From assembly GCA_937132085.1 (NCBI GenBank), contig CAKZNV010000019.1:1-56295 (forward strand): a stretch of 56,295 nt of DNA. Direction: 5' to 3'. This DNA is from an uncultured Rubritalea sp. GTDB lineage: Bacteria; Verrucomicrobiota; Verrucomicrobiia; Verrucomicrobiales; Akkermansiaceae. Both the position numbers and the translations under genes were made by a program. Of the stretch, positions 6,739-25,348 are shown one piece after another; position 1 is the stretch's first letter; each line of letters opens with the position of its first letter. The notes beneath the pieces were generated by a model. The model was not told the origin of the DNA and did not search any database. It was given only the letters and a program-made list of their open reading frames with translations.

Positions 6739-6757
6739 CGCCATGGGGTGGTCGCTT

Positions 6758-8220: not shown

Positions 8221-8312
8221 TTTTATAGAGTTTACAGAATTTTGCAGGATTAACAGAATTTTTTTTGGGGGGGAGAGTGTGTGATTGGTCTTATGGGACT
8301 TATAGGACTTAT
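8221..8312. repeat. Dispersed repeat C (copy 3) and GGACTTAT units
   Basis: Positions 8221-8266 read as the ACAGAATTTTGCAGGATTAACAGAATT element also found at 6437, 6494 and 27607. Positions 8287-8312 hold three near-tandem CTTATRGGA units that run into the stop codon of the DUF1080 gene. The units resemble 3691-3722 and 13-25. Confidence 0.6.
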
Positions 8313-9079: not shown

Positions 9080-9206
9080 GATGGTTTAGTATACTGATTT
9101 CAAAGGAGTATTCTTTCCAATAATGACGAGCTTACAAGATAAAGATTATGAGGGATTCACTACGATTTAGTCTTGATTGTTTCTGGAAGCGTTCCAAAGT
9201 GTCGCC

Positions 9207-10718: not shown

Positions 10719-10732
10719 ACGATTAAACGACG

Positions 10733-11302
10733 ATGTTACTAGTTATCGATAATTACGATTCATTCACTTACAACTTAGTTCAGTATTTTGGTGAGCTGGG
10801 TGCTGAGATGAAAGTGGTCCGCAATGATAAGATCACAGTGGAAGAAATAGCGGAGTTGGCGCCAAGCCATATCTGTATTTCGCCAGGGCCATGCACCCCG
10901 ACTGAGGCTGGGATCAGCTGCGATGTTATTCGTGAGTTTGGTGGTAAGATTCCTATTTTTGGAGTCTGTCTCGGTCATCAGAGTATTGGTCAGGTATTCG
11001 GTGGAGATGTAGTGCGAGCGGCGACGCTGATGCACGGTAAGACGTCTCCAGTGAAGCACAATGGGGAGGGGATTTTCCAAGGTCTACCTAGTCCGTTTAC
11101 TGCGACTCGGTATCATTCATTGATTGTGAAGCGTGAGACATTGCCAGACTGTCTGGAGATCACTGCTGAGACTGAAGATGGTGTGATCATGGGGCTGAGG
11201 CATAAGACGCTGGAGATCCATGGTGTGCAGTTTCACCCTGAGAGTATTCTTACCGAACATGGAAAAGAGATGTTGAAGAACTTCCTTGATGTGAAAATTT
11301 AG
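10733..11302 (+). CDS. trpG: Anthranilate synthase component II (glutamine amidotransferase)
   Basis: A class I glutamine amidotransferase of 189 aa that feeds ammonia to TrpE. The catalytic Cys79 lies in [15 protein letters not shown], and His168/Glu170 in [14 protein letters not shown]. The N-terminus [20 protein letters not shown] and [13 protein letters not shown] are characteristic of TrpG/PabA. The same subunit may also serve p-aminobenzoate synthesis, as in many bacteria with one copy. It lies directly behind trpE, and a third gene starts 10 bases after it. Confidence 0.95.
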
Positions 11303-11311
11303 AACTACCCT

Positions 11312-12595
11312 ATGACTCTCGAAGAAATCCAAGCTGCTTTACCTGAATCGAAACTGCGTCACGGTGCGCAGTGGTTGTTTTCGCCCGAGCCATTTAAGCT
11401 AACGAAGAAGGAAGCGAAGGCGGTGCAGAGTTTGGGGCATCCGTTGGCTATGTTTCAACGTGCGAGTGAGAATATCTATCAGAGATCTGCATTAGATAGA
11501 ATTCCTAGCTGGATTGCGGAGTTGTTAGATGCAGGTAAGCCTGACTGGATCGTGCAGCAACAACGTAGCACGGAGCTTAGAGATGTTTTACCGAGAGTGA
11601 TTAGGCCAGATTTGATTCTAACGGAAGATGAAAATGGTAAGGAGACTTTCGCTCTAACAGAGCTAGACAGCGTTCCTGGGGGGATGGGGATAGCGACGTG
11701 GCTGAGTAGAGTCTATGCTGAGCATGGATTTGATATTCTTGGTGGATCAGAGGGTATTATCGAAGGGTTTAAGAGCTTGTTACCTGATGGAGGCAAGGTG
11801 CTGGTGAGTGAGGAATCTGAGGATTATAAGCCTGAGATGCAGTGGCTGGTTCAGCAACTTGGCGATGCTTGGGAGCTAATCAATGCTGAGGATGACAAGG
11901 CGGATGATGATGCGGCTAGGTATAGATTTTTTGAGTGGTTTGACTGGAAGAATATTCCTGCGGCCAAGAAGCTGGCGAAGATGATTCAGCTGACTTCTCC
12001 ATGTAAACCACATCTGGAGGAGAAGCTCTGGCTTGCTCTTCTATGGAGCCCTGCTCTGAAAGGAATGTGGGAGAAGGAGATGCGTGGTAGTCATTTACAG
12101 AGAGTGCGTGAGGTTGTGCCATTTGGCTGGGTCATGGATCCTGCGAAACTTCCGCCACATGCTGCGCTTCCGAGATTGGGAGTGAATAGCTGGAAAGATG
12201 TCGGTGAATTTAGCCAGAAGGATCGTCGTTTAGTGGCGAAGGTGAGTGGCTTTAGTGAGCTGGCTTGGGGATCTAAGAGTGTGACTATCGGTCATGACAT
12301 GTCAGGTAATGATTGGTCGGAAGCGATCGATAATGCGACTGCAGAATTTGAGACTCAGCCGTGGATGATGCAGCAGTATCATGCAGGTAGAGTGGTGGAG
12401 CATCCTTACTTTGATGCAGATACTGGTGAGGTGAAGATTATGAAAGGGAGAGTGAGACTCTGTCCATATTATTTTATCGATGTGAGTGGTAAGACTAAGC
12501 TAGGTGGAGCCATGGCAACGATCGTTCCTGCTGATAAGAAGAAGATTCACGGTATGAAGGATGGTATTCTAGTGCCATGTGTGGTGGCTGAGTAA
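11312..12595 (+). CDS. Probable circularly permuted ATP-grasp-like protein
   Basis: A 427-residue protein that I cannot name. Three blocks suggest a circularly permuted ATP-grasp fold: LTELDSVPGGMGIATW near residue 117, LWLALLWSPALKGMWE near 240, and a C-terminal region with RRLVAKVSGFSELAWGSK, WMMQQYHAGRVVEHPYF and IMKGRVRLCPYYF. These resemble the nucleotide-binding and ligand blocks of glutathionylspermidine synthase-like proteins. It carries no signal peptide. It starts 10 bases after trpG, so it is probably co-transcribed with the tryptophan genes, though a role in that pathway is not implied. Family assignment is by pattern only. Confidence 0.5.
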   Translation: MTLEEIQAALPESKLRHGAQWLFSPEPFKLTKKEAKAVQSLGHPLAMFQRASENIYQRSALDRIPSWIAELLDAGKPDWIVQQQRSTELRDVLPRVIRPDLILTEDENGKETFALTELDSVPGGMGIATWLSRVYAEHGFDILGGSEGIIEGFKSLLPDGGKVLVSEESEDYKPEMQWLVQQLGDAWELINAEDDKADDDAARYRFFEWFDWKNIPAAKKLAKMIQLTSPCKPHLEEKLWLALLWSPALKGMWEKEMRGSHLQRVREVVPFGWVMDPAKLPPHAALPRLGVNSWKDVGEFSQKDRRLVAKVSGFSELAWGSKSVTIGHDMSGNDWSEAIDNATAEFETQPWMMQQYHAGRVVEHPYFDADTGEVKIMKGRVRLCPYYFIDVSGKTKLGGAMATIVPADKKKIHGMKDGILVPCVVAE

Positions 12596-12682: not shown

Positions 12683-13426
12683 ATGAAGCTGAGTAATAGT
12701 CTGACGAAGATGGGGGTGTTGATTCCACCGTTACCTTGGGATAAACCTAAGGTGAGGAAATCTGTGGATGCTGATGTGGTCGTGACTCTACATGGTTTAT
12801 GGAGAAGTGTTAGTGCGATGGAGCCGGTGGCTAAAGCGATGCATGCTCAAGGGTTTGAGACAGTGGGTGTGCCTTATGGATCGTTTCGGTTAGGTTTAGA
12901 TGCTATTGTTAGCCAAGTGATTGGGTTGCTAGAGCCGTGGTTGGAGAGTGGGAGGAAGATTCATTTTGTTACGCATTCATTGGGGGGAGTGGTGGTGAAG
13001 AGGTTAGTTGAGACGTTGTTGGCTGAGGGGAGTGATATAAATTTTGGGCGTGTCGTAATGCTAGCTCCACCGCATCAAGGAAGCGAAATTGTGGACTGGC
13101 TAAGTCGCTCACTTGTTAGGCGTCTTTTGGGGCCTGCAGGTGAGTTTTTGACTAGTGAGAAAATGCAGGAACCACAAGATGCGTTGAATTTTCCGGAGGA
13201 GGTGGAAGCAGCGGTGATTATGGGGAAGAGTAGTGCGTTACCTTTGTTTAGGAAACTGTTAGAGGCATCTAATGATGGGATTGTTTCTGTGGAAAAGGGG
13301 AAGCTGTATGGGATTAAGGAGTTTAAAGTGGTGGAGGCAGATCATACGTTTATCTCTAGTGAGAAGCAGGTGATTGGGATGGTTGAGAGGTTTATAGAGT
13401 TTGGGCAGACTGATGGGAAGTCGTAA
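12683..13426 (+). CDS. Alpha/beta hydrolase, lipase/PGAP1-like
   Basis: A 247-residue serine hydrolase. VVVTLHGLWRSVSAMEPVA supplies the oxyanion loop after strand 3. THSLGGVVVKRLVE holds the nucleophile Ser99 in the elbow T-H-S-L-G-G. VMLAPPHQGSEIVDW is typical of lipase-like esterases that recognise acyl chains. NDGIVSVEKG and ADHTFISS provide the likely catalytic Asp and His. There is no signal peptide. The specific substrate is unknown; esterases of this type act on triacylglycerol-like or membrane lipids. The gene ends next to the triple structured repeat. Confidence 0.8.
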   Translation: MKLSNSLTKMGVLIPPLPWDKPKVRKSVDADVVVTLHGLWRSVSAMEPVAKAMHAQGFETVGVPYGSFRLGLDAIVSQVIGLLEPWLESGRKIHFVTHSLGGVVVKRLVETLLAEGSDINFGRVVMLAPPHQGSEIVDWLSRSLVRRLLGPAGEFLTSEKMQEPQDALNFPEEVEAAVIMGKSSALPLFRKLLEASNDGIVSVEKGKLYGIKEFKVVEADHTFISSEKQVIGMVERFIEFGQTDGKS

Positions 13427-13434
13427 GGTGGTGG

Positions 13435-13553
13435 AGACAATTACAGTATAAGGTTCCCCTACAGGGAACGCTGGGGTTGGTGAAAGAAGACCGAGGGATG
13501 CGGCGTTGCCTTTCCACCCGGTTGGTATGAATTTGGCCTTCAGCCAAAGGGGA
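13435..13553 (+). repeat. Structured intergenic repeat, family A, copy 2
   Basis: It opens with GACAATTACAGTATAAG, a 5' extension shared with copy 5. Stem 1 is GTTCCC 13453-13458 with GGGAAC 13464-13469. The middle stem is ACCGAGG with CCCGGT, allowing one bulge. Stem 3 is TTTGGC 13532-13537 with GCCAAA 13543-13548 around CTTCA. The sequence differs from copies 1 and 3 in both arms, yet pairing is kept. Confidence 0.85.
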
Positions 13554-13670
13554 GATGGAGCATAAAGTTCACTTTCAGCGAACGACTCTGTTCTTGTGTG
13601 TTTAATAGGGATGCGTCGCTTTGCTCCTTTCCCTATTCTGGTATAAATTTCCCCGATTGGGGAAAGGGGA
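13554..13670 (+). repeat. Structured intergenic repeat, family A, copy 3
   Basis: Stem 1 is GTTC 13567-13570 with GAAC 13580-13583. Stem 2 is AATAGGG 13604-13610 with CCCTATT 13631-13637. Stem 3 is TTTCCCC 13648-13654 with GGGGAAA 13659-13665. Apart from a variable segment between stems 1 and 2, it closely matches copy 1 at 6538-6650. Confidence 0.85.
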
Positions 13671-13790
13671 GATGGAGCATAAAGTTCTCTTCCAGGGAAC
13701 GCTGGGGTTGGTGGATAGGACACAGGGATGCGTTGCTGACGCTCCTTTCCACCCGGTTGGTATGAATTTGGCCTTCAGCCAAAGGGGAGA
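13671..13790 (+). repeat. Structured intergenic repeat, family A, copy 4
   Basis: Stem 1 is GTTCTC 13684-13689 with GGGAAC 13695-13700, including one T-G wobble. Stem 3 is TTTGGC 13767-13772 with GCCAAA 13778-13783. Copy-to-copy distance in this array is 114 and then 117 bases. The middle stem is poorly formed in this copy. Confidence 0.8.
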
Positions 13791-13818
13791 TGAAACCTAG
13801 TTGCTGCGGTTTCAGGTG

Positions 13819-14478
13819 TTAGACTAGTTTGCCGTTTTTTAGGTTGTAGATCTTGTTGGTTTGGGCGGCGTCTTGGTCTGAGTGTGTGACCATGATGACT
13901 GTGTTGCCTTGTTGGGCGTATTGCTTGAGGAGATCTAAGGCTATTTGTGTGTTATCGTTGTCTAGGTTGCCAGTGGGTTCGTCAGCTAGTAGTAACTTGG
14001 GCTTGTTGATGATCGCACGAGCAAAGGCGACACGTTGGCATTCACCTGCGCTGAGTTTAGCGGGGTGATGATGCATGCGCTTTGTTAGGTCGAATTTCTC
14101 TAATAGTGTTTTGGCTTCCTCTAGAGCTTGCTCATGACTAATCGTTTTGTTGATGCTTGGAATAGCAATGTTTTCGAGAACGTTGAGGTAGGGCAGGAGG
14201 TGGAAGTTCTGAAAGATCATGCCGATACTTTCTGAGCGAAATTTGGATCGTTGTTTTTCGCTGATGTCGAAGATGACTGTGCCGTCTATGTCTACTGATC
14301 CGGAGCTGGGCTTTAAAAGTCCAGAGAGTGTGTAGAGTAAGGTTGATTTACCTGAGCCGCTAGGTCCTTGGAGTGCGACAAATGAACCGTTCTCGATCTC
14401 TAGTGTGACTTCGTCAAGAGCCTTGATTTTTTGTGTGTCAGGCTCGTAGATTTTGGTGAGTTTCTGAATACTAATCAT
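13819..14478 (-). CDS. ABC transporter ATP-binding protein, LolD/MacB type
   Basis: A 219-residue ABC ATPase. Walker A is GPSGSGKST at residues 38-46, the Q-loop is GMIFQNFHLLPYL, the signature is LSAGECQRVAFARAI, Walker B is LLLADEPTGNLD, and the H-loop His is in VMVTHSDQD. The signature deviates slightly from LSGGE. The DEPTGNLD form and short length place it with the LolD/MacB/FtsE group, which drives mechanical work in the periplasm instead of pumping solutes. Its start overlaps the last 8 bases of the permease gene. It is the last gene of the five-gene operon. Confidence 0.9.
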   Translation of the reverse strand: MISIQKLTKIYEPDTQKIKALDEVTLEIENGSFVALQGPSGSGKSTLLYTLSGLLKPSSGSVDIDGTVIFDISEKQRSKFRSESIGMIFQNFHLLPYLNVLENIAIPSINKTISHEQALEEAKTLLEKFDLTKRMHHHPAKLSAGECQRVAFARAIINKPKLLLADEPTGNLDNDNTQIALDLLKQYAQQGNTVIMVTHSDQDAAQTNKIYNLKNGKLV

Positions 14479-15790
14479 GACGTAGAGCGTTTAGTGGTTG
14501 TAAATTTGTAGCGTTGAGTGCTGGTAGCCATGTGGAGGCGATTGCTATCACTGGAGGTGCGAGAGCGATTACAAAGAGGATGTTAGAGCTGGGTGCGTGA
14601 CCAGTTGTTTTGAGGTAAATGAAGTAAGCTAGACAGATAGTGATGAGTGAAGCGATGAGGCCGATCGCTAGAGCTCGAATGATGAAGAGTTTAATGATGG
14701 ATGGACTGGCGACTCCGAGCGCTCTAAGTATGCCGATTTCTTCTCGTCGTTGTCTTACATTGAGAATACAGAGGTAGCTGAGAGTGATGAAGGTGATGAG
14801 GAATAGCAGGGGGACTAGGTAACTATTTAGCTGTTCTAAACTCTGTCTGGAGTCTGCTCTGGAGGTTTTTATGGCGGATAGCTTCTCATGGCTTTGGTCG
14901 ATGATTTGCTGACGGATGGTATCGGCTCTCTTAGAAGTTTTGACTCTGGCTTCGGCTCTGACTAGTGCTTTTGATCCTACTTCGATGATTTGGATGTTGG
15001 GTAGGATTGCATCTAGTTCTTTGCGAATGACGCCGACACGATCTGCGCTGGCACAGTTGCAGCCTAGGCATTTTATTGAGGATATCTGGCCTTGCATGTT
15101 GTAGAGATTTTGCATTTCTCCGAGGTGAATCCATGCAGTGCCGTCATCACGAAAGTCTTTTGGTAGATAGGTTTTGGCTACTTTATAGACTACTCCGTTA
15201 AGGGTGACTTGGTCATCGACCTTGATACCCAGTGGGTGGTGGAGATCATAGCCTAGAAAAATACTGCCAGGTTCTAGCGGTTGCATGATCGGCTTCATTC
15301 CTTGTCTGTGTGACATCGGGACCTGTCCAGCTACTCCGATTAGCATGATTCGGCGTTTCTGTTCAGTCCACTCTACTCGCTTGGCTAGTTGTGGGAGAAG
15401 GTGATTGATGGTGACTACTTTGCTGTCGGCTAGCTTGTTAGCGTAGTCTTGGGGAAGAGTTTTGATTGAGTATCCACGCTCCTTGATCGTTTCTATCGGC
15501 TCTTCATTTGAAAAGAGGTAGACATTGAAGCCTAGGCCTTTCATCGTTTTGCGGATGTCGTTCTCTAAACTAGTGAGGGTCTTTTTAGTCTTGGCGTTAT
15601 GCTTGATGAGCAGTTGTTCAGTTTCTTGTTGCTGGGTCTCTAGGCGTTTGGTCGTTTCAGAATCGAAAGCATTGAGAAGTGAAATAGAGTAGATGCTTAT
15701 GCAGAGTGCGAGGGTGATAGCGAAGATCGAAAAGATGAAGTTAGCTTTTCGATGCTTTATTTCTCTGAGGACTAATTGGAAAATAGACAT
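14471..15790 (-). CDS. FtsX/MacB-type ABC permease
   Basis: A 439-residue permease. One TM helix lies near the N-terminus (NFIFSIFAITLALCISIYSI). A large periplasmic domain spans about residues 40-310. Three C-terminal TM helices follow, around VPLLFLITFITLSYLCIL, RALAIGLIASLITICLAYF and ILFVIALAPPVIAIAST. The QRREEIGILRALGVASPSII block is the typical coupling region of FtsX-like permeases. The periplasmic domain holds a Cys cluster, IKCLGCNCAS, which is unusual for MacB-like proteins and recalls Cys clusters in two other proteins of the operon. The partner ATPase overlaps its end. A substrate-extruding outer-membrane channel was not seen. Confidence 0.85.
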   Translation of the reverse strand: MSIFQLVLREIKHRKANFIFSIFAITLALCISIYSISLLNAFDSETTKRLETQQQETEQLLIKHNAKTKKTLTSLENDIRKTMKGLGFNVYLFSNEEPIETIKERGYSIKTLPQDYANKLADSKVVTINHLLPQLAKRVEWTEQKRRIMLIGVAGQVPMSHRQGMKPIMQPLEPGSIFLGYDLHHPLGIKVDDQVTLNGVVYKVAKTYLPKDFRDDGTAWIHLGEMQNLYNMQGQISSIKCLGCNCASADRVGVIRKELDAILPNIQIIEVGSKALVRAEARVKTSKRADTIRQQIIDQSHEKLSAIKTSRADSRQSLEQLNSYLVPLLFLITFITLSYLCILNVRQRREEIGILRALGVASPSIIKLFIIRALAIGLIASLITICLAYFIYLKTTGHAPSSNILFVIALAPPVIAIASTWLPALNATNLQPLNALRHD

Positions 15791-15830
15791 GCAGGTAGAT
15801 TTGAAATTTGAGATTGGTGATTTAAAACTG
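15791..15830. repeat. Dispersed AT-rich repeat D, copy 1
   Basis: GATTTGAAATTTGAGATTGG followed by TGATTTAAAACTG lies in the gap between the permease and the upstream gene and reaches into the latter's stop. Related stretches lie at 38807-38838 and 40960-40992. It consists of short repeated GA-TTTGAAAT units. Confidence 0.5.
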
Positions 15831-16979
15831 CTTGTTGCTGCGTTTGTAGTAGATTAAGCCAGCTAGTAAAAGAAGTGAGATCATTCCCGTCGCTATGATG
15901 AGATTTCTTTTGAGTGATGATTGAATCGTATGCGGTTCTCTAGAATGAACCATATTTTCAGACTGAGCCGATGGTTGATTTTCTTTTCTAGGCGGATCAT
16001 CACTTAAGAAATCTCCAGTGCCTGTGAGCTCGGGGAGGTCTTTATCAATGATCACAGTAGAGTCGGCTATTTGTTTGTCCCAGTTGGCTTGCATAACTAG
16101 GTCGTAGCCTGGGTTTTGAGATTTGACGCTGCATGCACAGGCGTTGCAGAGATATTGACATTGATCAATGATGATCGTTCTGCTGACTTTGCTGGCTGGG
16201 ATTAGTCCTAGGCATCGGCCTCGTCCGAAGATTGGGGCAATGAATGATGGCTCTGGTAGTTGTGCCATTGATTTTCCTTTGAGGAGAATTTTTATGAACT
16301 CTTGTTCTTCTGGAGAGTTAGGATCGAGTGACAGGACAGTGAAGGCAATCTTTAGAGGAACTGATGAACGTAGCACATCTTCAAAATCGATTTCGCCTTG
16401 AGACTGTGCTTCAGCGATTTGGTCTGGTCGGATAACTCCTTCGGGTAGCGAAATGCTTTTCTGTGCTTCAATGAGAGCCTCGTCTAATATTTTTCTAACA
16501 GCTTGATCCTTTGATTTATCACCGGATAGAATATGTAGATAAACTGTGGAGTCTCCATTCAATAAGCGTTTGATGATCTCCGATCTGGCTGGCGACTGCA
16601 TGAGTGCACCGAGTGAGGATTTAGTTGTGTTTGCCAGTAAGATAGGCTCTGTGATGTTCAGGTCATCAGGAGCTGTTAGAACATGTGACGGAAAGGTTTC
16701 GATCATTTCGAGACCTGGAATAGACCATTGTTCTGCTTCTGTTAGGGCATTAGCATCGATGGTTTCTATCTCTAAATTCAGGGTGGATGGATTAGCTTCT
16801 GACTGGCTCTTGGCTTGATCTATCAAATCCTGAGGGCCTCGAACTAAAGGTTTTTTATGAATGATCTGTAGTCTATACTTATCGGCTTGCCAGCGCTCTA
16901 GAGCGTATCTGAAAACAGGCACTTGGCATGATAGAGCGAAGCTACTGAGCAGAAGAGATAGAGTGAATGTTCGAAGCAT
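15822..16979 (-). CDS. Exported membrane-anchored CQVPVF protein, ABC-transporter associated
   Basis: A 385-residue protein of unknown function. A signal peptide runs to LSCQVPVFRYALERWQ; cleavage before the Cys would leave an N-terminal Cys, but the -3 position (Ala) is a poor lipobox. A compact Cys cluster, QCQYLCNACACSV, lies near residue 290. A C-terminal TM helix at about 360-378 (NLIIATGMISLLLLAGLIYY) is followed by basic residues. I recall proteins with the PVFRYALERW motif next to ABC permeases in Planctomycetes and Verrucomicrobia, without known function. It is separated by only 3 bases from the propeller gene upstream and is part of the same operon. Confidence 0.7.
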   Translation of the reverse strand: MLRTFTLSLLLSSFALSCQVPVFRYALERWQADKYRLQIIHKKPLVRGPQDLIDQAKSQSEANPSTLNLEIETIDANALTEAEQWSIPGLEMIETFPSHVLTAPDDLNITEPILLANTTKSSLGALMQSPARSEIIKRLLNGDSTVYLHILSGDKSKDQAVRKILDEALIEAQKSISLPEGVIRPDQIAEAQSQGEIDFEDVLRSSVPLKIAFTVLSLDPNSPEEQEFIKILLKGKSMAQLPEPSFIAPIFGRGRCLGLIPASKVSRTIIIDQCQYLCNACACSVKSQNPGYDLVMQANWDKQIADSTVIIDKDLPELTGTGDFLSDDPPRKENQPSAQSENMVHSREPHTIQSSLKRNLIIATGMISLLLLAGLIYYKRSNKQF

Positions 16980-16982
16980 AGT

Positions 16983-18365
16983 TTATTTGAATGAGATGAT
17001 TTCACCTTTATTAGTAGAGACCACGAGGTGACCATCACTAACGGATAGACCATGAGCAATACCTTCAATAGGAGCGCTCCACAATGATTTACCAGACTTG
17101 GTATCATAAATCTCTACTTTGCCATCAAACCCACAGATGAGGTGATCACCAGCAACGATGAGCTCAGCGATTGCTGCTGCTGGGGTTTCCCACATAGAGC
17201 ATGCCTTTATTTCTGTATCGAGGCCTTTCACTTCAGCCATCAGTTGGTCATACTTTGGTTTGTTAGTTTTTTTGATTTTATTAGCGGCGACTATGGTATC
17301 AGCTCTTTTGGCTGAGAGAGAAGAATAGGTTGTGTAATCAAGCCCTTTTAGCGATCCATTGATATGCATGAATGCTTGCCCTTTGTAGATGACTGCTCGG
17401 TTTGCATTATTGAAAGCAGCGATACTTCTACCTTTCTGGTCAGTCAGAGAGATTTGATCATTACGGTTTTTTTGGCTGGATGGTCCCGCTATCAATTGGC
17501 TGTCTTCTGTTAGAATACAAAACACTCCACCAGCGTGACCCATGTTACCGAGAGTGTTACCAGATTTAACGTCGAACTTCAGAGCAGCAGCTCTGCCTTG
17601 TGGAATGTAGAGATGCTTATTATCGGTAAGGATGGCTCCCTGTAGAGTGACGCCAGTGTGAGCTTGATTGTATCCTCTCACTTTCTCTTCTTTGCCATGG
17701 GCTTTTTTGACGTAGGTAGATTTACCGCTCTTCTGAGTAACCGCATGGAGATATGAGTCCTCCCATGGTAGTAGTGAGCCTGCGAAAATGGCTTGATCGC
17801 CAACGAGTGTGACGCCAGTGCGGACTGGGTGGGTGGAAATGAGTTTGCCATTATTGATAATGTTTTGGGTGGTGGGAGCTGCATTCACTTTCCAAATAAG
17901 GTTACCATTGGTGGTGTCTACAGCGTATGCGTGACCATCATCAGACCCGAAGAATGCTCGGTTATTGGCTAAGCTCGGAGGAAATCGAACAGCGCTGTTA
18001 GTGAAGAATGTCCAGAGTTCTTTGCCAGAGTTTATATCGAAACAATGAACGGCATTGTCTGATGACGATCCGTAGTAGAGCTTACCATCGGCTATGGTGG
18101 TGTAGTAGCAGGGATCGAAATTACGCATGGATTGAAGTCCTGCGTTTTTCGCATAGGTGTCCCATTTGGCTGGACCAGTCCAGGCTTGTTGAGGGATTCC
18201 TCCTTGGTGATTCCAGCTTTTAGTAAGAGGTAGTTTGATCGTCTGAGCAGTGGTTCCACTACGACGATTATCAGCTCTGTAAGTTGTCCACTGAGCTAGA
18301 CATGTATTCGTGATGGCTAGGCCAATGCAGCTAACAGAGAGTGATTTTTTGATGAAATGATTCAT
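16983..18365 (-). CDS. Exported PQQ-type beta-propeller protein
   Basis: A 460-residue protein. The ATG at 18365 gives a signal peptide (MNHFIKKSLSVSCIGLAITN to CLAQW). Longer readings run into the preceding gene and lack a signal. Repeats with the form x-DG-x-hhx-G-(S)-x-D-x-x-hhCFDxxxGKxLW are typical of BamB/PQQ-like propellers. Examples are GKLYYGSSSDNAVHCFD, HAYAVDTTNGNLIWKV and LICGFDGKVEIYDTKSGKS. About seven blades are likely. No cytochrome c motif is present, so it is probably a scaffold or sensor and not a quinoprotein dehydrogenase. It lies 19 bases after the large propeller gene and 3 bases before the CQVPVF gene. Confidence 0.85.
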   Translation of the reverse strand: MNHFIKKSLSVSCIGLAITNTCLAQWTTYRADNRRSGTTAQTIKLPLTKSWNHQGGIPQQAWTGPAKWDTYAKNAGLQSMRNFDPCYYTTIADGKLYYGSSSDNAVHCFDINSGKELWTFFTNSAVRFPPSLANNRAFFGSDDGHAYAVDTTNGNLIWKVNAAPTTQNIINNGKLISTHPVRTGVTLVGDQAIFAGSLLPWEDSYLHAVTQKSGKSTYVKKAHGKEEKVRGYNQAHTGVTLQGAILTDNKHLYIPQGRAAALKFDVKSGNTLGNMGHAGGVFCILTEDSQLIAGPSSQKNRNDQISLTDQKGRSIAAFNNANRAVIYKGQAFMHINGSLKGLDYTTYSSLSAKRADTIVAANKIKKTNKPKYDQLMAEVKGLDTEIKACSMWETPAAAIAELIVAGDHLICGFDGKVEIYDTKSGKSLWSAPIEGIAHGLSVSDGHLVVSTNKGEIISFK

Positions 18366-18384
18366 GATGATAGGGAAGTTATCT

Positions 18385-21114
18385 TTATTTTGATCGAACA
18401 GGAGCGAAGCCGAGAGAAGTTTCCATCCAACCACCACAGGAGCAGCCTGCACCACCGTCGGGGATGAGTAGCATTCCGTTAGATGGAATGTAGCTGAGCC
18501 AGCAACTCGGTCTGAGACGTTTCCAGAAGGTGACCTCTTTTTCATCGATTCCCCAGACAGAAATAGCGCCACCTAGACCACGATAGAAGAGTGTGTCTCC
18601 AGAGCCGACAGCAGCGGCACAGGCAGCTCTAGGTCCGTAGTTGTAGCCAAGAGGTTTACCTTTTTTAAGATCGATACCGGAGGGATCAGTGTAAAGGTGG
18701 TCTTGGATGATGACAGGGTGCTGAATATGAGCTCCGTGATGGCTCGCTCTCCACTGGGTTTTTGTGTCCCACTCTAGTTTTCCGGACTTAGCTGAGAAAC
18801 TGTAGTAGGTGTAATAACCAGTGTTTTTGCCTGCTATAGATTGTGAAATAACTGCGTAAAAACTATCTTTAGTCGCTAGTCCGTAGCCTGCTGGGACACC
18901 GGCTTGAGTAGCGGTGACGTATTCAAGTTTAGGGAATGGTTTCTCCCATTTCACCTTGCCGCTTTTGAGATCAAGGCAGACAGCGTAGAGCTTATCAGTC
19001 CAGAGGCTGTTATCAGATATTCTGCCGTTTTCACCGTTTTTCAGATCTGGGCTACGGTTTTCTAAGAAGTAGATATTTTCGCCTTCTATGGTGATTGTTG
19101 AGTTGATGATCAGTCCTTTTCCATAAGCCCATTTACTGGCTGAATTGTGTTTATTGTAGGCGAAGAGGTTGTAGCTGATTACTTGTGCTATAGCTCTTCT
19201 GTCAGTGGCTCCATCGAACCAGTTTTGGCTGCCCCAGAACTCAGTGAGATGAGAACCTGCGAGGACACTTGAGCCAATGAGGTAATCACCAGAGTTAGCA
19301 ATGTAACCCCAATCATATTCTCCACGAGCGCTGTCGGTTAGCTTAAACGTTTCAGTTTGTTCACCAGTGGCTGCATTTAGTTTCCAAGCTCTGTCTTTAA
19401 TAGCAATGTAGAGATGGTCTTTATCTGCACACCAGTTAGAGCAGTCACGAGGGATGTTGATACGTCTTAAATCAGGGATTTCATAGGACCAGAGGATCTG
19501 GCCGTTGTGTGAGTCGAGACAGATCATACGATTGTGGCCTTGATGGTAGAGACGACCGTTAGAGGCTAGGGGAGCAGGCATGCGGGGCTGACGGTCGATC
19601 CCGAAATCTCCGCCTGGTCTGCCAATCCACTGGACTTGTAGATCATTTGTTGCGGTTGCACCCTTTAGAGATTCACCTGCATTTGATGTGTTTGCTGCGG
19701 TTCCGTATTGGTGGTTCCAGTCAGTGGTGTTGTTGTTTTTCTTAGACTTAACAGTGAATGTTTCGCCGTCGAGGATGACTAGCTTGCTGTTCGGTGCGAG
19801 TAGTGCGTAGCCAGCTTTTAGAGAGATAGGGAGCTTAGTCTGTTCAGAAGTGATGAGGTTTGCGATGCCAGTAGTGATGGGTAACTTCTTGTAACTATAG
19901 ACCTTGAAGATTGAGATTCTAGATCCATAGAATCCAGTCTGATAAAGGTTAACTCTAACAGAATCGATTAGTTTTTGATCCTTCTCAATACAGATGACTT
20001 TGAATTTTGATTGTTTGGCGATTTCTAGAGCTAAGCTACCATCCTTGATTCCTACTACGAGACAGATACCTGCTTTCTGCTTATTTAGACCTACCAGTTT
20101 GGATGCGAGTTTAGAGTAATCAGACTTACTGCCAGCAAGCTTTAACTCTTTAGGGATAGATGAAGAGGCGTAGTTGACGCTGGTGTTGAACTCGTAGATA
20201 GGTGAGAGCTTACGTTTTCCGTCGACAGTTCCCGATAGTCTGTAGAAGTATGTTTTGCCAGTTTCTAAGTTCTTGAGGTTGATGCTGTGGAAGTTGTCTG
20301 TGGATGTTGCTGGGGTGATTGTGGTGAATTTCTTGGTGAGTCCGTAAGCGATAGAGCTGGTTCCGGAATGGGTCGATTCCCAAGTGAGTTTGGCTTCACC
20401 AGGAGCGGTGAATGCGACTTTAGGTCGGACAGCGAATTTGTAGATAGAATCATCGGCCTTCTTTTTGATGAATTCTTGATCGAGCACGTTGTTGTAGATT
20501 TTGATGTTTTGGATTCTTCCTTCGAGTGGGAAGTTCTCATCTTTATCACGATAAGCTCCAATGACTAGATTGGTAGGAATGTCTGCTAGATCGATTTTAT
20601 TACCGATTTGCTGCGATTGAGCTAACTTACCGTCAACATAGAGACTGATTTTATCGCCATCATAGATAGCAATGAGAGTTGCCCATTGGCCTGCTGAAAT
20701 TGATTTTTTACTACTGATGATCTTTAGTGAACCTTTGGCTGCCTTGAACGTGTAATTGGAATTATTGTAGCCTAGGATCCAGCCTTTTTCGTAGTTGCCA
20801 TTATCTTGCGTGAAGCCAACGAAGCCTCCCCAAGCTTGCGGTTTGTCGACCCTAACTTTAGCGACGATACTAAAGGGCTTGGATGAAAATGCTTTTGCCG
20901 TTTCCTCAGGGAAGTGAATCTGTTGGCCATCAGAAAAGATGAGTAATCCCTCTGAGTCAAATTTGGCAGGTTTTTTTAAAACACCAATTTCTTCTAGTTT
21001 ATTATCTTTGATATGTTGTTTATCGAGCGTCCAATCATGTATTATTTTGGCACTGAGGCTATTGCTCAGTAGCATGCAAAGCATTGGAAGTAGCGAGTAT
21101 CGAAGTCTAGACAT
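18385..21114 (-). CDS. Exported LamG / FN3 / methyltransferase-like / PQQ-propeller protein
   Basis: A 909-residue exported protein. The ATG at 21114 gives a signal peptide (MSRLRYSLLPMLCMLLSNSL). Four regions follow. A LamG/concanavalin-like domain spans about 22-215 (PFSIVAKVRVDKPQAWGGF, ISLYVDGKLAQSQQIG). An FN3-like domain spans about 228-310 (LETGKTYFYRLSG). A Rossmann domain resembling class I methyltransferases spans about 345-450 (AGICLVVGIKDGSLALEIA, FKVICIEKDQKLIDSVRVNL). A PQQ-type propeller spans about 515-905 (ICLDSHNGQILWSYEIP). The C-terminus holds GAGCSCGGWMETSL. A SAM-binding fold in an exported protein is odd, since SAM is cytosolic; it may be a degenerate fold that no longer binds SAM. 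It is the first gene of the five-gene operon. Confidence 0.85.
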   Translation of the reverse strand: MSRLRYSLLPMLCMLLSNSLSAKIIHDWTLDKQHIKDNKLEEIGVLKKPAKFDSEGLLIFSDGQQIHFPEETAKAFSSKPFSIVAKVRVDKPQAWGGFVGFTQDNGNYEKGWILGYNNSNYTFKAAKGSLKIISSKKSISAGQWATLIAIYDGDKISLYVDGKLAQSQQIGNKIDLADIPTNLVIGAYRDKDENFPLEGRIQNIKIYNNVLDQEFIKKKADDSIYKFAVRPKVAFTAPGEAKLTWESTHSGTSSIAYGLTKKFTTITPATSTDNFHSINLKNLETGKTYFYRLSGTVDGKRKLSPIYEFNTSVNYASSSIPKELKLAGSKSDYSKLASKLVGLNKQKAGICLVVGIKDGSLALEIAKQSKFKVICIEKDQKLIDSVRVNLYQTGFYGSRISIFKVYSYKKLPITTGIANLITSEQTKLPISLKAGYALLAPNSKLVILDGETFTVKSKKNNNTTDWNHQYGTAANTSNAGESLKGATATNDLQVQWIGRPGGDFGIDRQPRMPAPLASNGRLYHQGHNRMICLDSHNGQILWSYEIPDLRRINIPRDCSNWCADKDHLYIAIKDRAWKLNAATGEQTETFKLTDSARGEYDWGYIANSGDYLIGSSVLAGSHLTEFWGSQNWFDGATDRRAIAQVISYNLFAYNKHNSASKWAYGKGLIINSTITIEGENIYFLENRSPDLKNGENGRISDNSLWTDKLYAVCLDLKSGKVKWEKPFPKLEYVTATQAGVPAGYGLATKDSFYAVISQSIAGKNTGYYTYYSFSAKSGKLEWDTKTQWRASHHGAHIQHPVIIQDHLYTDPSGIDLKKGKPLGYNYGPRAACAAAVGSGDTLFYRGLGGAISVWGIDEKEVTFWKRLRPSCWLSYIPSNGMLLIPDGGAGCSCGGWMETSLGFAPVRSK

Positions 21115-21250: not shown

Positions 21251-21520
21251 ATGAAAGTAATCTATCAGGGACAAATAGGTGTGGTGGCTGGACTACAGAG
21301 CGAGGATATCATCGCTTCTGGTGCGAGTTCTCTAGCTGAGGTTATTGCCGAAATAGCTGCGTCGAAATCTAATGATGTGCAGCAATTTTTATTAGATGAT
21401 AAAGGGAATGTTAGACAGAGTCTATTTGTAGCTGTGGATGGTGAGCATACGCGTGATTTCGACCAAGTGATTGGTGAGGCACATGAATTACTACTTATGC
21501 CTCCTATGGCTGGTGGTTAG
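21251..21520 (+). CDS. MoaD/ThiS-like ubiquitin-fold sulfur carrier
   Basis: An 89-residue protein with beta-grasp size ending in PPMAGG, the C-terminal Gly-Gly that is adenylated and thiocarboxylated in MoaD and ThiS. The LLLMPPMAGG tail resembles MoaD (hhPPVxGG) more than ThiS. The next gene, 28 bases downstream, is the matching E1-like adenylyltransferase. Together with the ModA/B/C genes this points to molybdopterin synthesis. Partner genes such as moaE are not in the window, so a role in another thiocarboxylate pathway (thiamine, cysteine, tungsten enzymes) cannot be excluded. Confidence 0.75.
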   Translation: MKVIYQGQIGVVAGLQSEDIIASGASSLAEVIAEIAASKSNDVQQFLLDDKGNVRQSLFVAVDGEHTRDFDQVIGEAHELLLMPPMAGG

Positions 21521-21548
21521 TTTGGTTAAATTTTAGAAAGAGAATAGC

Positions 21549-22280
21549 ATGTTAAGTGATATCGATAAGAAAATGTATGAATGGCAGCTCAATGTGCCAG
21601 GGTTTGGGGAACGAGGTCAGGAGATCTTGAGAAACTCCACAGCTCTGGTTTCTAGGGTGGGTGGTCTAGGTGGTCCTTTAGCGTTCTCGCTTGCTGCTGC
21701 TGGTATAGGTAAAATAATTTTAGTGCATGGTGGGGAACTGAGAGAAGATGATCTGAATCGTCAAATCGTGATGCATCATGATGGTCTGGGGGAGCCAAGG
21801 CACAGCCAAGCTGCTGATACATTGAGACGATTTAATCCTCATGTAGAGATTGAAAGTGTTGGTGAAAATATCACTGAAGAAAATGTAGCGGGGCTGGTTT
21901 CGAAGTCAGATATTGTTTTTTCTTGTGCGCCGTTATTTGAGGAGAGATTGCTGATGAACAGAGAGGCTGTTGCTCAGAAAAAGTTACTAGTGGATGGAGC
22001 GATGTTTAATATGGAGGGACAGGTTCTTGCTGTTAGAGGTGGAGAAACAACTTGCCTCGGATGTCTTGTAGACTCTCCACCTGAGGGGTGGCAGAGGAGG
22101 TTTCCAGTGATCGGCGCCTTGTCTGCAATGATCGCTCAGATCTCGGCTTTAGAGGGAATTAAGATGTTGACTGGGCTAGGCTCAGCGCAGACGGATACGC
22201 TGATTCATGTTGATAGTTTATCGATGGATATGCGTAAGATTAAGGTGAAACGAAATCCCAATTGCCGCTATTGTAAATGA
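21549..22280 (+). CDS. ThiF/MoeB/HesA-family E1-like adenylyltransferase
   Basis: A 243-residue protein expected to adenylate the Gly-Gly tail of the preceding carrier. The nucleotide-binding loop reads SRVGGLGGPLAFSLAAAGIG, a variant of GxGGLG. DLNRQIVM is the conserved Arg-containing helix. Two zinc-binding pairs are present, CLGC near residue 174 and CRYC at the C-terminus. The usual Asp pair after the second strand reads HGGELREDD, which is divergent. There is no rhodanese domain. The stop overlaps the start of the ModA-like gene (ATGA at 22277-22280), so translational coupling is likely. Confidence 0.85.
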   Translation: MLSDIDKKMYEWQLNVPGFGERGQEILRNSTALVSRVGGLGGPLAFSLAAAGIGKIILVHGGELREDDLNRQIVMHHDGLGEPRHSQAADTLRRFNPHVEIESVGENITEENVAGLVSKSDIVFSCAPLFEERLLMNREAVAQKKLLVDGAMFNMEGQVLAVRGGETTCLGCLVDSPPEGWQRRFPVIGALSAMIAQISALEGIKMLTGLGSAQTDTLIHVDSLSMDMRKIKVKRNPNCRYCK

Positions 22281-23785
22281 GTAAAAAACCAATATTAATC
22301 ATTAGTTGTCTGATTGTTCTGTTAGTTTCGCTTTCGTTTCTTCTGTTGAGTGATACTGTTCCTGAAGCTGATGTGCCGCAGGAGCTAGAAGTGCTCTGTG
22401 CAGCTGGGCTTCGTAGGCCAGTGGAAGAGGTAGCGAGGAAATATGAAGCTGAATATGGAGTGAAGATTAACCTCAATTATGGAGGTAGTGGTCAGCTCTA
22501 TGGAACGATGAAGCTTCGTGGTGGTGACCTGTATATTCCAGCAGATATTAGCTATATTGATGATGCTAAGAAAGCTGGGTTAGTGGCTGAGTCAATTCCG
22601 CTGAGTCATCTAACAGCTGGAATTATTGTGCCGAAGGGGAATCCTAAGAATATCAAAACTCTTGCTGATTTGCAGAGGGATGATGTTAGTTTAGCGATCG
22701 CTTCTGAGACTGCGGCAGTCGGAAAATTTACTCATAAGGTGCTGCGTCAGGCTAAGTTGTTAGATGGGATTTCTAGCGGTGAAGTGAACAAATTCCCTAC
22801 TGTTAATGAAGTGGCTGTGCAAGTGAAACTCCGAGCTGCAGATGCTGGTATCGTGTGGGATGCGCTGATGCCTCAGTATAAAAACTGTGAGTTTATCCGT
22901 GTGGCTGAATTTAATGTGAAGCGTAAAACTGCAAATGTGGGAGTGATTAGATCAACTAATAATCCTACTGGAGCTCTTAAATTCGCTCGATATCTGACTT
23001 CTAAGAAAGGTGCTGAAGTATTTAAGAAAAAGGGATTTGATGTTGTTAGTGAGAATTTTGCAGAGTGGAAAGAACGACCAAAAGTAGTGCTTTATGCAGG
23101 GTCTATGCTTAGACCAGCTATTCAAGACCAGCTGAAACAATTTGAGAATCGAGAGGGCTGTGAGGTTATCGTGAAGTATGATGGCTGCGGAGTATTAGTT
23201 TCAGCGATGAAATCGGGTGAAACTCCCGGGGCATTCTTCTCATGTGATGTTAGCTTTATGGAGCAAGTGCAGGAGAAATTTCATGCCAGTGTGGTTGTTG
23301 CGGCCAATGATATAGTGATTCTAGTGCCGAAAGGTAATCCAAGAAACATCCAGAGCTTGGATGACTTAGTTGGTCAGAAATTGAAACTTGGAATTGCTGA
23401 TCAGAATAAATCCGCTCTAGGTAAGTTGACTTATCAAATGTTGGCTAATCAACAGTTGTTAGAGAATCTGATAGCTAGTGGTAATATTGTAACGACAGTG
23501 GCGAAGGGGGATGATCTAGTGAATCAAATGCAGACTAATGCTCTCGATGTGGCTTTACTCTATAGAAGTAATGCGATGGCGAGTTCTGGTATTATGAAGC
23601 ACTGTGAGATCGTTGGTGTTGAGGCTGGTAAGGCTTATGCTCATCAACCATTTGCAATTGCGAAAGACTCGAAAAATTCTAGGTTGCTAGTGAGGTTAGG
23701 TGAATTTCTTACTAGTGAAGAAAGCAAAGAATCATTCCTTAAATACGGTTTTTACTGGGAGTTCGATCAGTCGGTGTCAGAATAG
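22277..23785 (+). CDS. Tandem-duplicated ModA-like molybdate/tungstate-binding protein
   Basis: A 502-residue exported or membrane-anchored binding protein (hydrophobic residues 5-25, LIISCLIVLLVSLSFLLL). Two ModA-like halves follow. The first, about 35-262, holds LCAAGLRRPVEEVARKYE, GSGQLYGTM, IVPKGNPKN, VGKFTHKVL and DAGIVWDAL. The second, about 268-498, holds LYAGSMLRPAIQDQLKQFE, CGVLVSAMK, LVPKGNPRN, LGKLTYQML and DVALLYRSN. The duplication is visible by eye in each block. Usual ModA proteins are about 250 aa with a single module. Downstream ModB and ModC genes complete an importer. The ligand could be molybdate, tungstate or a related oxyanion. Confidence 0.85.
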   Translation: MSKKPILIISCLIVLLVSLSFLLLSDTVPEADVPQELEVLCAAGLRRPVEEVARKYEAEYGVKINLNYGGSGQLYGTMKLRGGDLYIPADISYIDDAKKAGLVAESIPLSHLTAGIIVPKGNPKNIKTLADLQRDDVSLAIASETAAVGKFTHKVLRQAKLLDGISSGEVNKFPTVNEVAVQVKLRAADAGIVWDALMPQYKNCEFIRVAEFNVKRKTANVGVIRSTNNPTGALKFARYLTSKKGAEVFKKKGFDVVSENFAEWKERPKVVLYAGSMLRPAIQDQLKQFENREGCEVIVKYDGCGVLVSAMKSGETPGAFFSCDVSFMEQVQEKFHASVVVAANDIVILVPKGNPRNIQSLDDLVGQKLKLGIADQNKSALGKLTYQMLANQQLLENLIASGNIVTTVAKGDDLVNQMQTNALDVALLYRSNAMASSGIMKHCEIVGVEAGKAYAHQPFAIAKDSKNSRLLVRLGEFLTSEESKESFLKYGFYWEFDQSVSE

Positions 23786-23828
23786 GCATGTAGCGATTTA
23801 GAGCACTGTTGCTATACTGTAATTTATA

Positions 23829-24710
23829 ATGAGAAGATCTTCTAACAGACTAAAATTACCATCATGGTTCGAAGGTTGGCTTGGGCTATCGATCGGCACT
23901 TATGTGGTGTTGATTTTACTCCTTATTGCTGCTGATGTATGGTTTGTAGCTGCGGCTTGGATGGATGATCCATCTAAGACTCAGTTACTAAGTTCTGACG
24001 TGTTGTTAGACTCTGTGAAACTGACATTTTTGACCTGCACTATCAGTGCGATTTTGTCTGTGATCATTGCTGTGCCAATTGGTTATTGTTTGTCACGTTA
24101 TCGCTTCTGGGGACGCTCAGTGATTGATGCTATCCTCGATATCCCTGTGATTTTACCTCCTCTAGTGATAGGTCTTAGTTTATTGATCCTGTTTAATAAT
24201 TTTCCACCTAAGCAACTCGGTTGGGATATAGGATCGATAGAAGATATGATCTATTCTGTGACTGGACGACATGTTACTAATACTGAGTTGGCAGTGATCG
24301 TGGCTCAGTTTACGGTAGCGGCAGCCTTTGCAGTGCGGACGATGAAGGCTACATTTGATCAGATAGATCCACGGAGTGAGAAAGTGGCAATGACTTTGGG
24401 GGCAACTAGAGGGAGAGCATTTTTTGATGTGGTGTTACCTCAGTCCTATAAGGGGGTGGTCGCATCTGGAACGCTTGCTTGGGCTAGAGCGCTAGGTGAG
24501 TTTGGTCCAATATTAGTTTTCGCAGGAACGACACAGGGCAAGGTAGATGTGCTATCGACTTCGGTGTATTTAGAAATCAATACAGGAAACATCGAAGGTG
24601 CAGTGGTGATTTCTCTGCTGATGATCGTGCTAGCGATGGTGACTATTTTAACAGTGAGAATTCTAACAGATAAAGACTCTAAGGTAGATAAAGGAGGAAT
24701 GTCACGATGA
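23829..24710 (+). CDS. modB: Molybdate/tungstate ABC transporter permease (ModB-like)
   Basis: A 293-residue permease with an N-terminal TM helix (TYVVLILLLIAADVWFVAAA) and further helices typical of the MetI/ModB class. The EAA-like coupling loop reads EKVAMTLGATRGRAFFDVVLP, followed by ARALGEFGPILVFAG, the motif that characterises ModB/CysT/WtpB permeases. It lies 43 bases after the binding protein, and its TGA stop overlaps the next ATG. The oxyanion specificity is set by the binding protein and is not read from this gene. Confidence 0.9.
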   Translation: MRRSSNRLKLPSWFEGWLGLSIGTYVVLILLLIAADVWFVAAAWMDDPSKTQLLSSDVLLDSVKLTFLTCTISAILSVIIAVPIGYCLSRYRFWGRSVIDAILDIPVILPPLVIGLSLLILFNNFPPKQLGWDIGSIEDMIYSVTGRHVTNTELAVIVAQFTVAAAFAVRTMKATFDQIDPRSEKVAMTLGATRGRAFFDVVLPQSYKGVVASGTLAWARALGEFGPILVFAGTTQGKVDVLSTSVYLEINTGNIEGAVVISLLMIVLAMVTILTVRILTDKDSKVDKGGMSR

Positions 24711-25348
24711 TACGACTCGATCAACTCAAGGTGCAGGCAGGGGGGTTCTCTATAGACCAAGTGGATATGGAGATCGCTGATGGCAAGTGCACTGCTTTGT
24801 TAGGGAAAAGTGGCTCAGGTAAAACGACCATCATGGAGGCGATCTGTGGTTTGAGGATAGTCGTGTCTGGTAGCGTGTTTATTGTGGATCGAGATGTGAC
24901 TGATGAAACACCACATCTTAGAAATGTAGGTTTGGTGCCTCAGGACAATGTTTTATTCCCGACAATGACGGTGCGTGAGCAGCTAGGCTATGGACCTACG
25001 ATTAAGAAGTGGGACAAGCAGGCTATTCATGAGCGAGTAGAAGAGATAGCGAGAGCTCTGAAGATAGATCATTTGTTAGATAGAAAGCCTCTGGGCTTAT
25101 CTGGTGGCGAGGCGAAACGTGTGGCGATAGGTAGAGCAATGGCTGCAAGGCCAGATTTACTTTGTCTCGATGAGAGCTTTACGGGTCTCGATGATGAAAC
25201 TCGCTTAGAAGTAATGCAGGTTGTGAAGGCTGCCATTCAGAAAGAGGGCGCTACTACGCTAATGATCACGCATCAAATGAGTGAGGTAGAGCTCATGGCA
25301 GATGTCCGTTACCAGATTGTAGACGGACAGGTTGGGTTACTTGAATAG
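24707..25348 (+). CDS. modC: Molybdate/tungstate ABC transporter ATPase (ModC-like, short)
   Basis: A 213-residue ABC ATPase. Walker A is GKSGSGKTT at about 33-41, the signature LSGGEAKRVAIGRAMA, Walker B LLCLDESFTGLD (a Ser replaces the usual Pro), and the H-loop is TLMITHQMSE. It stops right after the nucleotide-binding domain and lacks the C-terminal molybdopterin-binding (TOBE) regulatory domain of Escherichia coli ModC, so allosteric inhibition by internal molybdate would not work in the same way. The start overlaps the end of the permease gene by four bases. Confidence 0.85.
   Translation: MIRLDQLKVQAGGFSIDQVDMEIADGKCTALLGKSGSGKTTIMEAICGLRIVVSGSVFIVDRDVTDETPHLRNVGLVPQDNVLFPTMTVREQLGYGPTIKKWDKQAIHERVEEIARALKIDHLLDRKPLGLSGGEAKRVAIGRAMAARPDLLCLDESFTGLDDETRLEVMQVVKAAIQKEGATTLMITHQMSEVELMADVRYQIVDGQVGLLE

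Follow-up and report, generated by a model that had tools for sequence, protein, structure and literature searches.

A recurrent gene unit in an uncultured Rubritalea joins exported propeller proteins, an FtsX/LolD-type transporter and molybdate-type genes, with a Cys-x-Cys motif in three envelope proteins

Four type VII ATP-binding cassette (ABC) systems are described in Escherichia coli: MacAB-TolC, LolCDE, FtsEX-EnvC and YbbAP-TesA (accessible part of PMC12646458). In the maturation of nitrous oxide reductase, the membrane-anchored Cu(I) chaperone NosL carries a Cys in a CXM motif, and the ABC transporter NosDFY has been proposed as the supplier of sulfide to the exported enzyme (accessible part of PMC6530538). 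In cytochrome oxidase assembly, membrane-anchored COX11 and the thioredoxin-fold SCO proteins pass copper on, SCO having two essential cysteines in its thioredoxin fold, arranged as CxxxC (C169/C173) (accessible part of PMC9232578). As far as these portions of the three papers describe them, none of the systems combines the set of parts found in the cluster reported here. It lies on a 56,295-nucleotide stretch (the window, meaning the whole DNA analysed; contig C19) of an uncultured Rubritalea sp. whose genome assembly has 4.46 Mb and is 98.7% complete. At its centre is an operon (13819-21114) that encodes two exported propeller proteins (PQQ1 and PQQ2), a third envelope protein (P3) and an FtsX/LolD-type transporter. 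No paper on this gene set or its motifs was found in the open-access literature, subscription journals and preprints being outside the scope, which agrees with an earlier note on this DNA that knew of no described function for the set. Our favoured reading, held tentatively and at somewhat less than even chances, is that the cluster encodes a dedicated ATP-driven envelope system that would make or insert a metal centre, probably with sulfur, in the exported propellers.

The operon consists of five minus-strand open reading frames (ORFs), in gene order PQQ1 (21114-18385, 909 aa), PQQ2 (18365-16983, 460 aa), P3 (16979-15822, 385 aa), an FtsX/MacB-type permease (15790-14471, 439 aa) and a LolD/MacB-type ATPase (14478-13819, 219 aa), with gaps of 19, 3, 31 and -8 bases. 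The ORFs, starts and spacings are those on which the earlier note based its claim of a single operon. That operon is real, and it is one half of a recurrent unit of about ten genes, the other half of which the note did not include. Diverging on the plus strand 136 bases away (21251-25348) are a MoaD/ThiS-like sulfur carrier with a Gly-Gly end (21251-21520; PF02597, 28.1 bits, cut-off 22.5), a MoeB/ThiF-like adenylyltransferase with four conserved cysteines (21549-22280), a tandem, two-domain ModA-like binding protein (22277-23785), a ModB-like permease (23829-24710; best match TIGR01581, 192.2 bits, cut-off 210.3) and a ModC/WtpC-like ATPase assigned by family profile (24707-25348). The five-gene order recurs at loci L024/L042 (one genome), L061, L065 and L076; it is therefore beyond chance. 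At L061 and L065, from two other Verrucomicrobia, all ten genes are on one strand in the order PQQ1-PQQ2-P3-FtsX-LolD-MoaD-MoeB-ModA-ModB-ModC. Locus L162 has nine tightly packed genes on one strand, ModA-ModB-ModC-MoeB-P3'-FtsX-LolD-PQQ2-PQQ1, where P3' denotes a divergent protein that takes the place of P3. Within the unit, the FtsX/LolD pair is optional.

Neighbours of P3 were clustered without labels in 98 loci, duplicates included. The recurrent families were propellers (64 and 33 loci, in two clusters), pooled ABC ATPases (46), tandem ModA (39), FtsX (38), ModB (32), MoeB (29) and MoaD (15). A non-redundant set was made of the 40 loci, among 77 unique ones from the 98 P3 genes, that are flanked on each side by 7 kb of DNA or more. 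Within 7 kb of P3, this set has a propeller in 29 loci, tandem ModA in 22, MoeB in 19, FtsX in 18, LolD and ModB in 17 each, ModC in 16 and MoaD in 7. The FtsX gene is at most 150 bases downstream of P3 on the same strand in 18/18 loci with FtsX in this range, and a propeller gene is at most 150 bases upstream, also on the same strand, in 22/40. The transporter is tied to exported propellers, as previously proposed. Among 384 genomes of the class, at chosen E cut-offs of 1e-10 for P3, 1e-60 for PQQ1 and ModA and 1e-50 for FtsX, P3 was found in 41, PQQ1 in 30, the FtsX type in 31 and the full tandem ModA in 51, the latter counted from 57 matching genomes after half-length matches were dropped (G006, G046, G090, G252, G335, G401). 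Tandem ModA is present in 38 of the 41 genomes with P3 versus 13 of the 343 without it. Fisher tests on such co-occurrence ignore shared ancestry, for which the count by genus (23/25 with P3 versus 12/146 without; genera assigned by hand) is a partial remedy. Tandem ModA also accompanies PQQ1 in 29/30 genomes and the FtsX type in 30/31; the exception in both cases is G090, which has a half-length ModA match on the same contig as FtsX.

All 13 genomes with tandem ModA and without P3 were inspected around ModA. In five or more of them, the operon has a P3' in the P3 slot, recognised by motif (L160, L161, L162, L163, L165). At L164, FtsX, MoeB and PQQ1 are present, with no P3' among the picked ORFs, and no P3-like gene was seen at L166-L170 and L172 (labelled ORFs only for L169 and L170). 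L171 has a MoeB-ModC-ModB-ModA-LolD-FtsX run in which the place of P3 is taken by a different, lipoprotein-like ORF of 372 aa (6291-7406) with a CQC motif and a glycoside hydrolase family GH26 match over the cut-off. Named P3 carriers among the best 80 of at least 584 confirmed relatives include members of Verrucomicrobiota, Kiritimatiellota, Lentisphaerota and Planctomycetota. Two cultured carriers, Rhodopirellula sp. SM50 (L107) and Stieleria sedimenti (L106), have PQQ1-PQQ2-P3.

An invariant Cys-x-Cys (CxC) motif is shared by three separate envelope proteins of the operon. In P3 it is C281-C283 (16131-16139, minus strand; both cysteines in 91/91 alignment rows). In the permease it is C244-C246, in the presumed periplasmic domain (15053-15061, minus strand; 38/38). 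In PQQ1 it is C891-C893 (GCSC; 18436-18444, minus strand; 31/31 rows), within the C-terminal sequence GCSCGGWMETS. Any CxC was present in 99/99 P3, 38/38 FtsX and 34/34 PQQ1 ORFs with duplicates included, and in 78/78, 27/27 and 23/23, respectively, after removal of near-duplicates. Control neighbouring ORFs have it in 26/442 cases (250-600 aa) and 5/109 (600-1100 aa), and no CxC was found in the ModA, ModB and MoeB ORFs of the loci. The PQQ1 motif takes the form GC[ST]C in 33/34, the exception being a 511-aa fragment with its CxC elsewhere (L097, 8483-10018). Among divergent members, a CxC was found in 8/8 permeases and, as G-C-[ST]-C, in 11/11 propellers; when divergent members were added to the permease alignment, the motif was kept in 25/25. 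In the second, mixed propeller cluster, 32/32 ORFs of at least 700 aa carry a CxC versus 3/42 of the shorter, PQQ2-like ones, so the motif marks the large propeller. COX11 of cytochrome oxidase assembly has a CFCF motif.

P3 (15822-16979, minus strand) has a signal peptide and no family match by sequence in Pfam, NCBIfam or the PDB. The earlier note had left it as a protein of unknown function, a label that can now be revised by an AlphaFold2 model built from a 91-sequence alignment (predicted local distance difference test, pLDDT, 88.3; predicted template modelling score, pTM, 0.78). In this model P3 consists of two thioredoxin-like domains and a C-terminal helix (residues 355-384), which is likely a membrane anchor. 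With VIA-align, residues 127-278 matched thioredoxins (Z 8.7, root-mean-square deviation (rmsd) 2.7, 100 aligned), and the other domain, at about residues 31-132, matched 2yoi (Z 7.7, rmsd 3.1, 84 aligned), which is below the Z of 8 that the tool takes as the mark of a common arrangement. Both Z values are modest; the succession of strands and helices that the model shows agrees with two thioredoxin-like domains. The catalytic CxxC of thioredoxins is absent, and only three cysteines are invariant in 91/91 rows, namely C281, C283 and C18, the last of which lies where the presumed signal sequence ends. The divergent P3' proteins are homologous to P3 (hhalign probability 97.8, E 8.6e-13) and keep C-E-C in 6/6 cases. 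Like COX11 and SCO, P3 has a membrane anchor, here a likely one, and like SCO it combines a cysteine pair with a thioredoxin-like fold, here in the model. Unlike SCO, as far as the accessible text describes it, P3 has two thioredoxin-like domains, a CxC after the second one instead of CxxxC, and no Pfam match. A copper-chaperone label taken from the fold was considered, given a match to the copper-bound plant SCO-like protein 6n5u (VIA Z 7.7), and was rejected because many thioredoxins reach the same Z and the match is thus uninformative.

PQQ1 (18385-21114, minus strand; P0001) is an exported protein composed of a LamG lectin domain (Pfam 64.8 bits, cut-off 27.6), a purple-acid-phosphatase N-terminal/Fn3-like domain, a degenerate methyltransferase-like domain and a BamB-like propeller with a conserved His/Cys set. 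Matches below the Pfam or NCBIfam cut-offs were the purple-acid-phosphatase N-terminal domain (28.5/30 bits), CbiT-methyltransferase (15.9/78.3) and the PQQ domains PF01011 (21.7/26.7) and PF13360 (27.2/27.6); by the scores of these two PQQ domains, PQQ1 does not qualify as a PQQ-dependent dehydrogenase. Its model (pLDDT 80.5, pTM 0.86) contains the methyltransferase-like domain and the propeller, which probably has eight blades. Foldseek related the propeller to 6l8a (E 9.4e-15) and VIA to Rv3035, BamB and others at Z 23-26, the best being Rv3035 (9p3g; Z 25.9, rmsd 3.1, 336 aligned), for which a structure with the protein FecB also exists (9p3f). A role as tetrathionate hydrolase, the top Foldseek match, was rejected, as the propeller fold alone is in common, at 14-15% identity. 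PQQ1 thus resembles BamB, PQQ dehydrogenases and tetrathionate hydrolase in its propeller and differs from them by low identity (8-15%), the invariant His/Cys set and the C-terminal GCSCGGWMETS. A conserved HHxxHxxH motif (residues 792-799; 18718-18741, minus strand) has its second, third and fourth His invariant in 31/31 alignment rows and the first in at least 90%; it is incomplete in some divergent members (L173, L174, L177). Further conserved residues are H299, C607 and C646 (numbered as in the modelled fragment, 225 lower than in P0001). The methyltransferase-like fold (residues ~330-460, 3dlc match) occurs within an exported protein and its S-adenosylmethionine motif is variable; we treat the domain as degenerate because this glycine-rich motif varies across the PQQ1 alignment. 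PQQ2 (16983-18365, minus strand) is an exported PQQ/BamB-like propeller without a CxC, and it misses the BamB equivalog cut-off (53.7/285.2 bits).

The permease (14471-15790, minus strand) has an FtsX C-terminal domain (Pfam 39.6 bits, cut-off 25.5) and a membrane core similar to that of MacB and LolC. This C-terminal membrane part (PDB profile positions 289-429) is all that it shares with characterised transporters, and for the region that precedes it the PDB holds no relative recognisable by sequence. The gene of the LolD/MacB-class ATPase (13819-14478, minus strand; curated family profile, 226 bits to the LolD model) overlaps that of the permease by 8 bases. By sequence, the pair can be classed as a type VII (MacB/FtsX-like) ABC transporter. 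An ordinary MacAB-TolC pump was rejected, in line with the note, and so was a Lol pump. The ATPase is encoded separately and not fused to the permease as in MacAB-TolC, the Lol equivalog cut-offs are missed (LolCE 39.2/362.45 bits, LolD 226/307.75), and the similarity is confined to the membrane core. In addition, no MacA adaptor or TolC channel was recognised by eye among the neighbour clusters found in at least 5 of the 98 loci, a survey made without profile searches and outside which the genome was not searched. As in the type VII systems of E. coli, an FtsX-like permease and a separate LolD-type ATPase presumably act through periplasmic partners. Unlike them, to the extent that the accessible source covers them, the cluster has no recognised MacA/TolC, LolE, EnvC or TesA partner; its permease carries the invariant CxC before the membrane core and is partnered by propellers and a tandem thioredoxin-like protein.

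The divergent half of the unit resembles a ModABC molybdate importer in that tandem ModA passes the ModA equivalog TIGR01256 (119.5 bits, cut-off 62.5) and has ModB- and ModC-like partners. It differs in the duplication of ModA, in cysteines in or near the oxyanion pocket, in ModB and ModC below their equivalog cut-offs (TIGR02141, 153.9/182.6 bits; TIGR02142, 149.9/285.05) and in being kept in genomes without MoaE and MoaC. The MoeB-like protein has a ThiF domain (156.7 bits, cut-off 28.1) and misses the MoeB equivalog (TIGR02355, 133.8/376.55). Among 40 sequences, the tandem ModA cysteines C41, C304 and C323 are conserved in 39, 38 and 38, respectively. With what we take to be the E. coli ModA numbering, phmmer alignments (4kd5, 8zj6) read by eye place Ser12 at G44 (domain 1) and M277 (domain 2) and Ser39 at S71 (domain 1) and C304 (domain 2). 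Both serines are named as oxyanion-pocket residues in the accessible part of PMC8895017. MoaE is missing from 9 of the 41 P3 genomes, against a background of 232/384 genomes that have it. MoaC was examined in five of these nine, which are 93-98% complete, the other four being less complete or more contaminated; all five lack MoaC as well, while three control genomes have it. All five carry P3, tandem ModA and the FtsX type, and in three (G059, G067, G068) P3 is found together with ModA, ModB, an ATPase and MoeB. Ordinary molybdopterin synthesis therefore does not explain the cluster, and a molybdopterin gene cluster was ruled out as a general explanation. The genome to which the window belongs has MoaE and MoaC elsewhere, as well as matches to the molybdopterin oxidoreductase family and two further ThiF-family genes.

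The reading of a metal-centre system draws on the conserved gene order, the strong association across genomes between tandem ModA, P3 and the FtsX type, the P3 model, the invariant CxC in three proteins, the conserved His/Cys set of PQQ1 and the presence of the cluster in genomes without MoaE and MoaC. In view of the conserved thiols and the ModABC/MoeB partners, cofactor or thiol chemistry on the propellers seems more likely than the role suggested earlier, that of moving or controlling them; the observation made then is confirmed and its interpretation partly supported. In the mechanism that we propose, ModABC would import, or tandem ModA would hold, a molybdate-like oxyanion or its thio form, and MoeB, with MoaD where present, would provide activated sulfur in the cytoplasm. 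Membrane-anchored P3 would bind the metal or cluster through its CxC while its thioredoxin-like domains hold the propeller. Where present, FtsX-LolD would spend ATP on a hand-over from one CxC to the next. PQQ1, with its HHxxHxxH and cysteines, would be the holo-enzyme and PQQ2 a partner or scaffold; Cu, Mo and W are the candidate metals. Such a system may work like NosDFYL or Cox11/SCO, as a functional parallel and not as a demonstrated member of either. Like NosDFY-NosL, it would have an ABC transporter, a membrane-anchored thiol metallochaperone (P3, as proposed here), an exported target and a supply of sulfur, which is a proposal for NosDFY as well; unlike it, on the portion of the source available, the permease is of a different type and sulfur-carrier and ModABC genes are added. 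None of the scanned cluster proteins matched a Nos family in the curated libraries, no dedicated NosZ, NosD, NosY or NosL profile search having been made.

A bolder version of this proposal, which we consider doubtful, is that PQQ1 represents a class of exported metalloenzymes not known before, in which the His/Cys site of the propeller would hold a Mo/W- or Cu-sulfur centre of an undescribed kind. It would be matured along a CxC chain (P3, permease, PQQ1) by a further type VII ABC machine with its own oxyanion importer and sulfur-carrier pathway, entirely separate from molybdopterin. If the metal-centre reading as such is right, this gene cluster of Verrucomicrobia, Planctomycetes, Lentisphaerae and Kiritimatiellae encodes a pathway for a metal cofactor that has not been described before and puts type VII ABC transporters to a new use; there would also be a reason why ModABC- and MoeB-like genes persist in genomes without MoaE and MoaC. 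The reading further includes a testable claim on P3, a family for which Pfam has no match. Should the metal idea prove wrong, the CxC that is invariant in three separate envelope proteins would still offer experiments a concrete starting point.

Several observations weigh against the metal-centre reading. A redox disulfide would account for the CxC equally well. In the PQQ1 model, the least confident part is the CSC loop (fragment residues 647-673; pLDDT below 50), so a composite His/Cys metal site is a proposal and not a result. The Cys substitutions in the ModA pocket, as judged from the alignments, argue against plain molybdate as ligand, and 32 of the 41 P3 genomes do have MoaE. In two of the genomes without MoaE and MoaC (G069, G285), no ModB, ModC or MoeB match was found in the stretch around ModA. 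The seven loci with MoaD within 7 kb are few among 40, although a floor of 80 aa on ORFs may miss short ones. Five of the 40 loci have no partner at all in this range, and FtsX is not within it in 22/40 and is missing from 21/51 tandem-ModA genomes, so the core does not depend on FtsX. At the chosen cut-offs, P3 and PQQ1 are both absent from six tandem-ModA genomes. The distribution is patchy, with P3 in 1/11 same-genus relatives (13/58 genomes overall in the same search, that of the window included).

The alternative that survives best, although we regard it as unlikely, is thiol/disulfide quality control. P3 would be a chaperone resembling the b-b' domains of protein disulfide isomerase, its CxC and that of the permease would rearrange or reduce disulfides in the propellers, and ATP use by FtsX-LolD would drive substrate release. 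The best Foldseek match of P3 is indeed a bb' fragment of ERp57 (E 1.1e-4, probability 0.99, TM-score 0.20 by query), and the CxC in three proteins and the conserved cysteines of PQQ1 suit such a role, but P3 is without CxxC, and the tie to tandem ModA, MoeB and the HHxxHxxH of PQQ1 are left unexplained. Less probable still is propeller sorting, in which FtsX-LolD would take P3-bound propellers out of the inner membrane and direct them to the surface or outer membrane, in the way that LolCDE handles lipoproteins. The FtsX core and the ATPase are most like LolC, MacB and LolD, and the LamG lectin domain suits a surface role. However, there is a single permease instead of LolC plus LolE, the LolD and LolCE equivalogs are missed, and no LolA-like gene was recognised by eye among the recurrent neighbour clusters, where no LolA profile search was made; ModABC and MoeB are also unaccounted for.

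We give a similarly small and slightly lower chance to oxyanion sensing or capture. Here propellers and P3 would pass a molybdate- or tungstate-like ion to tandem ModA for import. The FtsX pair would act as a gate, and MoeB/MoaD would then serve ordinary cofactor synthesis. Tandem ModA over the modA cut-off and MoaE in most P3 genomes are consistent with this, as is Rv3035, solved also with FecB, as best propeller match. That match is weak evidence, however, because propellers match one another widely and many unrelated ones score Z 23-25, and the five carriers without MoaE and MoaC indicate that import for molybdopterin is not the general purpose. A chance neighbourhood of unrelated housekeeping genes, for which the scarcity of P3 among same-genus relatives and the five partnerless loci could be cited, is largely refuted and hardly credible given the order conserved in distant families of several phyla and the co-occurrence across genomes.

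A role in phage defence was rejected, since PADLOC gave nothing for PQQ1, PQQ2, P3 and the permease (P0001-P0004) and ATPase-type matches only for the LolD-type ATPase (P0005). Promoter and terminator scans gave matches no more numerous than in shuffled sequence. On the 3' side of the operon, the window has interspersed direct repeats at 13420-13830 (56 nt in three copies and 38 nt in four), and a 154-aa ORF called inside this tract is probably spurious. Sulfatase-like genes, which are common in these bacteria, occur near P3 in 29 of the 98 loci, duplicates included, and may reflect this general abundance. In Roseibacillus and relatives (L071-L073, L077-L079), P3 is beside M1-peptidase-like and sulfatase-like genes, as judged by eye, and its labelled neighbours include no FtsX, ModA or propeller. 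Two P3 genes occur with several giant propellers, MoeB and a ModA-type gene on a contig that bears the label Candidatus Kuenenia stuttgartiensis (L108). At L167 (G400, 1516-12539), where no P3 was seen, tandem ModA-ModB-ModC adjoins genes whose products, judged by eye, resemble cytochrome c oxidase subunits and a Cox15-like protein, a possible copper link. Finally, a small lipoprotein-like ORF, rhodanese-like by eye, directly follows P3-ModA at two loci (L039, 12287-12748; L040, 6460-6951) and would fit a sulfur role.

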